Shown here piece by piece: positions 55,042-58,276 of a stretch of DNA of 64,000 bases. The DNA comes from an uncultured Dehalococcoidia bacterium (lineage in GTDB: Bacteria; Chloroflexota; Dehalococcoidia; Lucifugimonadales; UBA3495): the NCBI GenBank assembly GCA_951813535.1, contig OX638345.1, forward strand, positions 2,725,158 through 2,789,157, in the 5' to 3' direction. Position numbers and translations under genes: made by a program. Numbering within the stretch: position 1 is the first letter of the stretch; the number at the start of each line of letters is the position of its first letter. Under the pieces are notes generated by a model. That model was not told the DNA's origin. It did not search any database and worked only from the letters and a program-made list of their open reading frames with translations.

Positions 55042-55288
55042 TAACCGCCTGTTTGGCGAAAAGGCGGGCCGCGCTCCGCGCGCCCGGACTCGCCACCAAG
55101 CGCCGTTGTTGAACCCGGCCATATCCATGACGTGTGGTCCGACATCTGTTTGTTACAGATCGTTAATCCCGCCGCAACACCGGCGGAGTAGCGTGGTACT
55201 CGCCAGCGCCGCTCGGCCTTCCGGTGCCGCCGAACGGCGCTGGCAACTGATCGTTCAACTCCCGCCCTCGCTAATGACCTGGTGGCAG
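55042..55288. other. Intergenic region between tig and the ATP-grasp pseudogene
   Basis: About 250 bases without a recognisable gene. It contains an inverted repeat GCCAGCGCC/GGCGCTGGC (55202-55210 with 55236-55244, 25-base loop). Open frames here are short and match nothing known. Confidence 0.45.
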
Positions 55289-56426
55289 ATGGCGACTCGG
55301 GGAATCTCGAAAGCCCCATTGAACGAACACTTGAACTCCGACGGGACTACCCGTTCCGTCTACCGACCTCTCACGAACGCCCTGGACGGCCTCGGAGTGC
55401 CCGAACTGCAGGAACGTTGACGCGACGCCAACGATAGTGCCGCGCTTGACGCGTTCACCTTCATGTTGGACCCTCGCGAACTCCGCCCCGTGCCCACCGA
55501 TTGGCTGCCCCGGCTGATCCCGGCCCACGAATGGAAAAACCATCTCTCGCGGCGTCGCTAAACGATTGAAGGCGATCAACCATTTTCTTTAGTTCGCCGG
55601 TGGTTACGATATCGTCCCCTACGATATCCGTTCTGCTTACCTGGATGTGTTCGCCTCGCTTTGCGACACCGACTCGCCCGTCTGTGTATTGCTCACCGAC
55701 AGCAAGTTCGGCTCCGCCTTTTTCGAGCATCGGTACCTGTCCGAGCTTCTGGGCATCCCCCTCGTGGACGGTCCCGACCTCTACGTCGGACACGACGGCC
55801 GCGTGTGGACCCGCTGTCTGGATGGCGATTTCGAGGTCGGCCTCGTCTACCGCCGCGTGGAGGACGTTGAACTCTTCGTCCCCGGCCTGACCGCAGCCTA
55901 CCTGGATCACAAGGTCGTGCTCGTGAACGCCATGGGCACTGGCGCCTGCGACGACAAGTTGGTGTTCCTTTGGGTGCCCGATATGATAAAAGCCTATCTG
56001 GGAGAAGAGGACATTTTGGAACAGGCCCACAGTTACGACCTTCGGTCTCCGGACAACCGCCAATACGTGCTGCAGAATTTGGACAGTCTGGTTCTCAAGA
56101 CTCGCCTGAGGTACGGCGGCTTGGGCGTATTCATCATGCCCGATCTGGACAAGGGCTACCGCAGCCGTCTGTCCCAACAGTCGATGGAGCAGCCCCAGGT
56201 CTTCATCACCCAGGAAACCCTGGACTTCTCCCAACATCTTGTCTTTGACGAGACCAGTGGCGAATTCGAAGAACGCCACGTCAACCTGCGCGTGTTCGCG
56301 GTGCAAAACGGCCGCGGGGAGGTCACCGTTTTCCCCGGCGGCCTTACCCGCGTATCCGAGGCGAACAGCCGGGTCACCAACAACTCGTCAGGAGGATCAT
56401 GCAAACCGAGCTGGGTGGTCCGATAG
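55289..56426 (+). pseudogene. Decayed circularly permuted ATP-grasp protein (DUF404/DUF407 type)
   Basis: Pieces of one ATP-grasp gene remain in order. Piece 1 (55289-55420) reads DGTTRSVYRPLTNALDGLGVPELQER and ends in an in-frame TGA. Piece 2 (to 55561) goes on in that frame: ...FTFMLDPRELRPVPTDW, LPRLIPAHEWKNHLSRRR, stop. Piece 3 continues after a frameshift near 55552 as VAKRLKAINHFL and hits TAG (55590-55592). Piece 4 (55593-56426) is the C-terminal two-thirds: VCVLLTDSKFGSAFFEH, GLVYRRVEDVE, LVNAMGTGACDDK, FPGGLTRVSE. Between pieces 3 and 4 about 110 residues of the family are missing, including the ATP-site EDNLRxPSG block. With two stops, one frameshift and a deletion this is very probably non-functional. 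Intact members have about 470-490 residues and neighbour transglutaminase and alpha-E genes, as here. Confidence 0.8.
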
Positions 56427-57310
56427 GTGTCGAGACGACCCCGGTGCACTATGCCTACGTCGCCCGGTATTCCTACACCGACGCCGTGGTGCAAAACGAA
56501 AATTTTCTCCGCCTTTCGCCCTACGCCGACGCCTACCAGACGCCGGGACCTTGCAGCGTGGCAACTTTCCCGCAGGGCCGGCAGGTCGAGTATCCCGACC
56601 GGCTGGGGAACACCGTTCACCGGGTCCGAATCAACGCGCCGCACCAGGAGCTGATCATCGCCGCCGCCGGAAAAGTCTGGCTGAACCGCCACACTATCGT
56701 TGTACCCGACCTGCCGCTCAGCGGTGCCGAGTACGGTTTGGAGGCCCAGGAATTCTTGTCCGCTTCTCGCCTGGCCGACCCGGAGAGCGTCGCGAATGCC
56801 GCGCTGGAGGCCGCCGCCGGGGCGACTACCTTGCTCTACACTGTGGACAACATCGTCCAGTGGATCTACGCCAACATTCGCTACGAACGCGGCCACACGT
56901 CCGTGAACACCAGTGCCGCGGACGTCTTGGTATCGCGGCGCGGTGTTTGCCAGGACCAGGCGCATCTCGGCCTGGCCATGCTCCGTGCCCTCGGTATTCC
57001 AGCCCGCTACGTCAGCGGCCTGTTGACCCGCCAGCCCGGCGAGACCCATGCCTGGATCGAGTTCCTGCACCCGCACCTCGGTTGGTTGCCCGCCGACCCG
57101 ACGCGTGGCGTGGTAATTCACATCGGCACCGATTACCTGAAATTCGGTATCGGACGCGACTATTCGGAAGTCCCGCCCGTGTCCGGTTCGTTCATCTCCC
57201 GTGGTGACGGGCAGCTCGTTTTCACCACCGCCGAAGTGTTCTTCGGGCGCGACGCTGTTACTGTTGACGACGCCCTGAACCTTCTGCGCTCCGACGACGC
57301 GGCCTCGTAA
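56399..57310 (+). CDS. Transglutaminase-like cysteine peptidase-fold protein
   Basis: 303 residues from ATG 56399 (MQTELGGPIGVETTPVHYAYV), AGGAGG just upstream; the start overlaps the end of the ATP-grasp pseudogene. An N-terminal beta-rich region (YAYVARYSYTDAV...) is followed by the transglutaminase core with Cys184 (RRGVCQDQAHL), His217 (GETHAWIEF) and Asp233 (PADPTRG). The triad is intact. In many bacteria this protein is encoded with a circularly permuted ATP-grasp and an alpha-E protein; a peptide-modifying role has been proposed from that association. Unlike its two neighbours it has no lesion. Confidence 0.87.
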   Translation: MQTELGGPIGVETTPVHYAYVARYSYTDAVVQNENFLRLSPYADAYQTPGPCSVATFPQGRQVEYPDRLGNTVHRVRINAPHQELIIAAAGKVWLNRHTIVVPDLPLSGAEYGLEAQEFLSASRLADPESVANAALEAAAGATTLLYTVDNIVQWIYANIRYERGHTSVNTSAADVLVSRRGVCQDQAHLGLAMLRALGIPARYVSGLLTRQPGETHAWIEFLHPHLGWLPADPTRGVVIHIGTDYLKFGIGRDYSEVPPVSGSFISRGDGQLVFTTAEVFFGRDAVTVDDALNLLRSDDAAS

Positions 57311-57355
57311 CCGTGATCGGCCCCAACCCGTACCCCCGCAGGAGACAAACGGGCT

Positions 57356-57887
57356 ATGGTGGAACCCAGGTCAATCGCCTTTGCCCCAGACCGGTGGCTC
57401 ACCGACTCCCGGGTATACAACCTGATTTGGATGGGCCGGTGGTTGGAGCGCGCTGACAATATCACCCGCGTCGTCAATTCGTTCGCCCGCGCTGCGGTGG
57501 AAAACGGCGGCGACATGCCGGCCCTCCAACAGTCCCTCGGCAGCGCCGCCGCCATCCGTGGAGTTTCAATCGACGATCCGCCTCGCACTCTGGAGATGCT
57601 CCTGAAACAGCACGAGGTATCGTCCATCTACCACAGCCTGGCTACGGCTCGCGGCAACGCCACCCACGTTGGCACCGTGGAACTCATCCGCGCCATGTCC
57701 GAAGCCGTCCTCACCCTGGAGGACAACCGCGCGATGCTGCAAACGCCTCTGGACGCCCTGCTGCTTGACCAACCAGGTCCTGGAGCGCCTCAGCGCCGTC
57801 TACCAGGTCATCGACGATAACTGGTTCCACCAGGAAGCGCTGTCCGAGGAGGAGGTCTACCGCCGCTTCGTCCAGCAACAACAATAA
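57356..57887 (+). pseudogene. Frameshifted alpha-E (DUF403) protein
   Basis: Starts MVEPRSIAFAPDRWLTDSRVYNLIWMGRWLERADNITRVV, the alpha-E N-terminal pattern (RNLxWLGRxLERAENxxR). The first frame runs 154 residues to 57820 but loses family likeness after QTPLDALLL near 57767. The likeness continues in another frame: TNQVLERLSAVYQVIDDNWFHQEALSEEEVYRRFVQQQQ, ending at 57887. One base change near 57766 (CTGCTGCTTGACC) would restore a single frame of about 177 residues. Full-length alpha-E proteins have about 310, so it also seems shortened. An assembly or sequencing error is possible for the frameshift alone. Confidence 0.7.
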
Positions 57888-57916: not shown

Positions 57917-58276
57917 TCAGATCAGCACCCGAGTGGTGGGTTCCAACATTTCCCGAACTGGGTCCACCTTGAACATCAGGATCTGAAGGGTGGTTGATCC
58001 GACCACGCTGGCGTCTTCACCTTCTGGTCCAAAAAGTGCAGGGCAAATGTCCTCGCGCCCTTCGATTCCTATTACTGCCTGACCTCGCCAATAGGACACC
58101 TCGCTGCCGTCGGCAAGCGTCCCATCAACCTGCGAGCGTCGGGGTATGTGCAAGGCGTCCAGCAGCGAAGCCGGGAACATGGAATGGGAAGCACCCGTAT
58201 CCACCAATGCTTCTACTTCCAAAGTGTCGCCCCCGGCGGGATTCCCGACGCGTACTCTCGTAGCAAACGTTCCCAT
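57917..58276 (-). CDS. Retropepsin-like aspartic protease (clan AA), second copy
   Basis: 119 residues (MGTFATRVRVGNPAGGDTLEVEALVDTGASHSMFPASLLDALHIPRRSQVDGTLADGSEV). Catalytic motif VDTGAS with Asp26 at the same place as in the copy at 23098. FGPEGED and TTLQILMFKVDPV are shared with that copy, so these are paralogues, not only fold relatives. No signal peptide. It is convergent with the alpha-E pseudogene and located upstream of a strong hairpin. Substrate unknown. Confidence 0.8.
   Translation of the reverse strand: MGTFATRVRVGNPAGGDTLEVEALVDTGASHSMFPASLLDALHIPRRSQVDGTLADGSEVSYWRGQAVIGIEGREDICPALFGPEGEDASVVGSTTLQILMFKVDPVREMLEPTTRVLI

Follow-up and report, generated by a model that had tools for sequence, protein, structure and literature searches.

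The type-B cassette in the window

The window analysed here is a 64,000-nt stretch of an uncultured Dehalococcoidia genome (G000:C1:2725158-2789157, + strand; the genome is a single contig of 4.38 Mb). It was compared with 60 related genomes, among them metagenome bins of Chloroflexota/Dehalococcoidia; the congeneric set comprised 14 genomes including that of the window. The locus of interest is a three-gene cassette, termed type B, in the order ATP-grasp, transglutaminase and short alpha-E. In both the window and the congener G001 the cassette occupies the same genomic position, flanked by clpX-clpP-clpP-tig and an LLM-type flavin gene (names assigned from translations). Each of the ten congeners that have the whole cassette showed intact orthologues of its genes. 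No informative name for the cassette proteins came out of NCBIfam.

The type-B circularly permuted ATP-grasp gene survives in two pieces. Its N-terminal remnant (55289..55592, +) was delimited by nucleotide alignment and by a tblastn search in which the query, the G001 orthologue, matched with 76% identity over residues 1-83. The in-frame TGA at 55418-55420, already noted in the initial annotation, occupies the place of a Trp codon (TGG) in G001, G004, G012 and G009. A frameshift that had been placed near 55552 proved genuine but wrongly located: alignment with congeneric orthologues assigns it to a one-base insertion near 55533, accompanied by a substitution, in GGAAAAACC (~ 55533-55538). The TAG at 55590-55592, likewise recognised earlier, sits at a deletion junction (55590..55593, +; alignment with G001, G012, G004 and G009). 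The deletion is in frame and spans ~ 240 nt (79-80 codons, corresponding to G001 residues ~ 102-181), so that the earlier estimate of about 110 lost residues has to be reduced to ~ 80, while the loss of the ATP-site block stands: YVILEDNLRIPSG is gone, and the LEDNLRIPSG block aligns with LEDNLRTPSG of PDB 3n6x.

Downstream of the junction lies a C-terminal remnant of 277 open codons (55593..56426, +), which matched PF14403 with 204 bits over profile positions 138-374. Its open frame, 86% identity to G001 and omega (dN/dS) of 0.064 are what might be expected if this piece were still made and had a function of its own. We give that explanation very little credence, however, as the deleted acidic block is missing, the remnant is not kept whole in the three other species with a decayed cassette described below, and six changes occur at the 121 positions that are invariant in 19 intact type-B proteins, compared with 0-1 in each intact congener. 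One of the six is G354R, in the glycine-rich TRxGYGGxG loop.

The type-B transglutaminase-like gene (56399..57310, +) is a complete open reading frame of 303 aa with Bact_transglu_N (PF08379, 44 bits) and Transglut_core (PF01841, 86 bits) domains. Residues Cys184, His217 and Asp233 were invariant across 12 aligned orthologues, and a ribosome binding site, AGGAGG (56390..56395, +), is recognisable in the sequence within the end of the ATP-grasp remnant, just 5′ of the ATG; the initial description of a gene with its triad and a good ribosome binding site was accurate. A structure model (mean pLDDT 71.5) supported the fold but not substrate choice.

The short alpha-E gene (57356..57884, +) is broken. 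The frameshift reported near 57766 corresponds to a one-base insertion at ~ 57765 (CTGCTGC-TGACC to CTGCTGCTTGACC), after which the frame reads to 57820, giving 154 aa with an altered tail in place of the conserved NWFHQEALSEEEVYRRFVQQQ; in intact congeners the protein measures 174-193 aa. Convergent to alpha-E, a small retropepsin-like aspartyl protease gene (PF13650, VDTGASHSMFPASLL) was observed at 57917-58276 (−), and its position beside the cassette is conserved in the window and five congeners (G001, G004, G012, G009 and G013).

One-base insertions make up two of the four lesions, one of them within a run of A, and dN/dS of the remnants is not raised, both of which would suit a sequencing or assembly error over a cassette that is intact in the real genome. 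Such an error could account for both insertions, yet it could not have made the deletion and would hardly explain a stop in place of Trp: an in-frame loss of ~ 240 nt and a TGG-to-TGA substitution are untypical of errors. In addition, six invariant residues are altered, and the neighbouring clpX, clpP, clpP and tig genes are all intact. An artefact is therefore barely credible, and alignment with orthologues confirmed the lesions as real, with the corrections to positions and sizes given above.

Compared with intact orthologues, the window ATP-grasp-B thus carries the inactivating lesions of a pseudogene (two stops, a frameshift and an 80-codon deletion), yet not its raised dN/dS (omega 0.072 vs 0.066 elsewhere). 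Estimates for the window branch were 0.07-0.08, with an upper bound near 0.12-0.13. Since omega is not raised, decay in the window is very recent, and for the same reason retention of the transglutaminase there is uninformative when taken alone; it is three other species (G013, G007 and G011) that carry the argument.

Repeated decay around the transglutaminase

Transglutaminase-B was intact in all 14 congeners, while full ATP-grasp-B was present in ten. Across the wider family the transglutaminase was intact in 24/24 genomes, in 20 of them with full ATP-grasp-B beside it, and no ATP-grasp-B lacking a transglutaminase was found in this set of 24. The four orphan transglutaminases belong to the window genome, G007, G011 and G013, and the lesions differ in each. 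In G013 the ATP-grasp gene has several deletions and stops, and alpha-E has a stop and a large deletion. In G007 nothing is left but a fragment of the alpha-E tail and the last 37 codons of the ATP-grasp gene, where the ribosome binding site lies, and in G011 the ATP-grasp gene is reduced to a fragment of ~ 24 codons. The native N-terminal residues of the G011 transglutaminase (L094:6743-7690) are gone, and its start now falls within a fragment of the ATP-grasp gene (MNAMGTGASEP...).

Mapped onto a maximum-likelihood transglutaminase tree, orphan status required four changes, at least three of which were forced by well-supported branches. The cassette thus decayed separately at least three, probably four, times in the genus, the transglutaminase staying each time. 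The initial view of a decaying cassette with the transglutaminase as its surviving part is confirmed, both by the full cassettes in 10/14 congeners and by the like outcome in three further species.

Selection was examined with our own fit of a codon model (GY-type, F3x4, omega by branch class). Transglutaminase omega was 0.089 in the window, 0.089 in G013, 0.134 in G007 and 0.083 in G011, compared with ~ 0.105 on the remaining branches, and omega = 1 was rejected for each of the four orphan branches (2dlnL 28-67), indicating purifying selection. In the window, alpha-E gave an omega of 0.07. This absence of elevated values in both broken partners makes the window, by itself, compatible with a neutral lag, in which the whole type-B cassette is dying and the transglutaminase has simply not been hit so far. 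The decays in the other species speak against it. In G013 the decayed ATP-grasp-B and alpha-E had omega values of 0.40 and 0.26, respectively, vs 0.089 for the transglutaminase; had the latter been released together with its ATP-grasp, a value near 0.4 would be expected, and a lagging transglutaminase (omega 0.43) was rejected (2dlnL 31-35; 34.6). In G007 and G011 the ATP-grasp gene is nearly erased, but transglutaminase omega is still 0.13 and 0.08, and none of the 24 genomes has a broken transglutaminase. Neutral lag was rejected for G013, G007 and G011, and as a general explanation we regard it as highly improbable.

Conserved elements upstream of and within the ATP-grasp gene

A candidate promoter or control site, TTTGTTACAGATCGTTAAT (consensus GTTACAAATMGTTAAY, then GCAACA), was located at 55149..55167 (+), ~ 137 nt 5′ of the ATP-grasp start. 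With at most one mismatch, the element occurs 100-139 nt 5′ of ATP-grasp-B in nine intact congeners; G003 has five mismatches, and the element was absent from the other genera examined. It is kept in the window (one mismatch), in the decayed G013 locus (none) and in G007 (none), where it now lies 890 nt 5′ of the orphan transglutaminase, the intervening ATP-grasp gene being gone. Its survival would fit continued transcription from the old start. A regulon sharing the motif was considered and rejected, as its own genome holds a single site within three mismatches.

Inside the ATP-grasp gene, six species share a 29-nt AT-rich block, GATATGATAAAAGCCTATCTGGGAGAAGA (55980..56008, +), in identical or almost identical form; the decayed G013 copy retains it without change, although the sequence around it is only ~ 77% identical. 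The significance of this conservation is marginal: the longest exact run was 42 nt, and the permutation p value was 0.0015 in one of four comparisons and weaker in the others. An internal promoter at the block was rejected (a within-clade test of synonymous sites gave p = 0.20 in its best test window; no sigma-70-like site in a promoter scan), as was a repeated element, the block being single-copy in each genome.

A second, type-A pair and the distribution of transglutaminases

Two PF14403 paralogues are present in the genus: type A, scoring ~ 500-530 bits and accompanied by a full-length alpha-E, and type B, scoring ~ 320-340 bits. At 2936820-2939050, 156 kb from the cassette, the window genome encodes an intact type-A pair (530 bits for ATP-grasp, 211 bits for alpha-E) with no transglutaminase adjoining. 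The initial proposal that the system is being lost in this lineage is thus not upheld, because an intact copy of the ATP-grasp/alpha-E pair remains. All four orphan genomes have an intact type-A pair, which is weak evidence by itself because type A is present in 13/14 congeners (all except G003).

In type-A-only genomes of the order, a transglutaminase directly follows alpha-E in five of five cases (G038, G041, G045, G049 and G057); at loci of genomes that have, or have had, type B, none was found beside type A (0/14 examined), and the ATP-grasp and transglutaminase coordinates in the remaining A+B genomes agree with this pattern. A and B transglutaminases formed separate clades. In the type-A tree, much of which is poorly resolved, G040 (A+B, no A transglutaminase) grouped with G045 and G057 (A with transglutaminase) with support of 95/93; this grouping makes repeated loss of the A transglutaminase in B-bearing lineages probable. 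Among the 60 relatives, PF14403 ATP-grasp and transglutaminase occurred together in the same 28 genomes, and the other 32 had neither.

Outside the cassettes, solitary B-like transglutaminase genes (L065-L070, 42-51% identical) were found in other Chloroflexota bins with neither ATP-grasp nor alpha-E in their flanks; Cys and His are intact in genes such as that of SAR202 bin16. A more remote transglutaminase-fold protein of 280 aa (GVCRE, HAWFE) is encoded in the window genome away from any cassette (G000:C1:3366921-3367547; L129:4784-5623, −) and also occurs in G001, G022 and G028.

Interpretation

We favour, with a probability of roughly 0.55, the reading that the window holds a recently broken type-B cassette whose transglutaminase is kept as the sole linked one, serving the type-A pair in trans. 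The B transglutaminase would have taken over from the ancestral A transglutaminase, which was then lost; the two ATP-grasp/alpha-E pairs would be redundant, leaving one free to decay; and the B enzyme would act in trans with the remaining pair in an amide- or peptide-forming pathway. Such a pathway would consist of an ATP-grasp ligase, alpha-E and a transglutaminase or amidase of papain fold, and might serve nitrogen economy. If the B transglutaminase serves both pairs, either could go, as type B has done in four congeners and type A in G003. Sharing in trans is supported by the A loci that lack a transglutaminase wherever B is present, together with the repeated loss of the B partners under purifying selection on the transglutaminase, the matching occurrence of ATP-grasp and transglutaminase among the 60 relatives, and the persistence of the upstream element in the window, G013 and G007. 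The solitary homologues L065-L070, whose flanks hold neither ATP-grasp nor alpha-E, and the remote 280-aa protein weigh against it.

Those same solitary genes with intact Cys/His (e.g. in SAR202 bin16) lend some support to the main rival explanation, in which the B transglutaminase has a function of its own, for instance as an amidase or protease acting on free peptides, and its flanking genes are dispensable. Also in its favour are the repeated retention of the gene after both partners were lost and the annotation of the nearest solved structure, 3isr, as a ‘putative cysteine protease’. Against it, no genome among the 60 relatives has the transglutaminase without also encoding a PF14403 ATP-grasp, and type-A loci lack a transglutaminase exactly where B is present. 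We consider a stand-alone function less likely than sharing. The suggestion of the initial annotation that the transglutaminase now works alone may be correct, but takes second place because of this constant association and because the A pair has no transglutaminase of its own. In a related tentative view, the transglutaminase would be the essential output, able to act without a dedicated ATP-grasp, as the solitary homologues of other Chloroflexota perhaps act, and the cassette a loose association that sheds ligase and alpha-E repeatedly.

The link to nitrogen economy in the favoured trans-acting reading is proposed because several type-A operons carry an ammonium transporter. An AmtB-type gene (PF00909) lies between the type-A ATP-grasp and alpha-E in G057, G045, G040 and G022, and in G054 a convergent one adjoins alpha-E (five type-A operons: L116:4195-5658, L120:5215-6651, L123:4853-6253, L126:6442-7761 and L124:7463-8854). 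In Pseudomonas putida, PP2685-PP2687, which include a transglutaminase-like gene, and an ammonium transporter are induced under nitrogen limitation (PMC3325844), and marine co-occurrence of CP-ATP-grasp/alpha-E/transglutaminase domains with urea metabolism domains has been described (PMC3597751). Together with these reports, the transporter genes make nitrogen economy our working hypothesis.

Among the papers searched, none dealt with the loss of single components of the CP-ATP-grasp/alpha-E/transglutaminase system. The system is widespread, and at least three lineages of these Chloroflexota, probably four, amount to partial knockouts made by nature. They show that the transglutaminase can be separated from the other genes of its operon and that, of the three components, it is the most strongly retained. 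The interest of the case lies in this recurrence more than in the one decayed locus.

Comparison with known systems

The three families found here, CP_ATPgrasp (PF14403), Alpha-E (PF04168) and a transglutaminase with Bact_transglu_N, are also the ones that occur together in the Anbu operon (Iyer et al. 2009; Valas and Bourne 2008). Two papers that describe the system, PMC5666114 and PMC6376114, report its physiological role as unconfirmed. For the Yersinia bercovieri ATP-grasp, phosphate release from ATP is the sole activity reported, and a stable complex among the operon proteins was not found (PMC6376114). Ten congeners have an intact circularly permuted ATP-grasp (PF14403/PF04174), and so, as type A, does the window genome, while the window itself holds broken remnants; a short alpha-E lies in the operon of intact congeners and is frameshifted in the window; and the transglutaminase has PF08379, PF01841 and C184/H217/D233. 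Anbu itself is absent: the whole window genome gave no PF00227 match, whereas 10/14 control genomes did, and a proteasome or Anbu partner for the cassette was accordingly rejected, there being no proteasome-fold protein in the genome. Gene order also differs, being ATP-grasp, transglutaminase, short alpha-E in type B and ATP-grasp, alpha-E, transglutaminase in the Anbu operon; moreover, two ATP-grasp/alpha-E pairs are found here per linked transglutaminase, and ATP-grasp and alpha-E are repeatedly lost.

Among solved structures, PDB 3isr, a transglutaminase-like putative cysteine protease of Cytophaga hutchinsonii, shares fold and domain order with the window transglutaminase over its full length (Foldseek E 2e-19, profile E 3e-22) at 22% identity. 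Intact ATP-grasp-B aligns over 443 residues (E 1e-77) with PDB 3n6x, a putative glutathionylspermidine synthase with a circularly permuted ATP-grasp; relative to it the window copy is without ~ 80 residues, among them the block that matches LEDNLRTPSG. Finally, the RloABC/RimBK systems combine an aspartic protease with an ATP-grasp (PMC12239564), and the small PF13650 protease adjoining the cassette recalls this arrangement. Here, however, the protease gene is convergent, the transglutaminase is soluble and retains its catalytic residues, and the ATP-grasp is of a different family.
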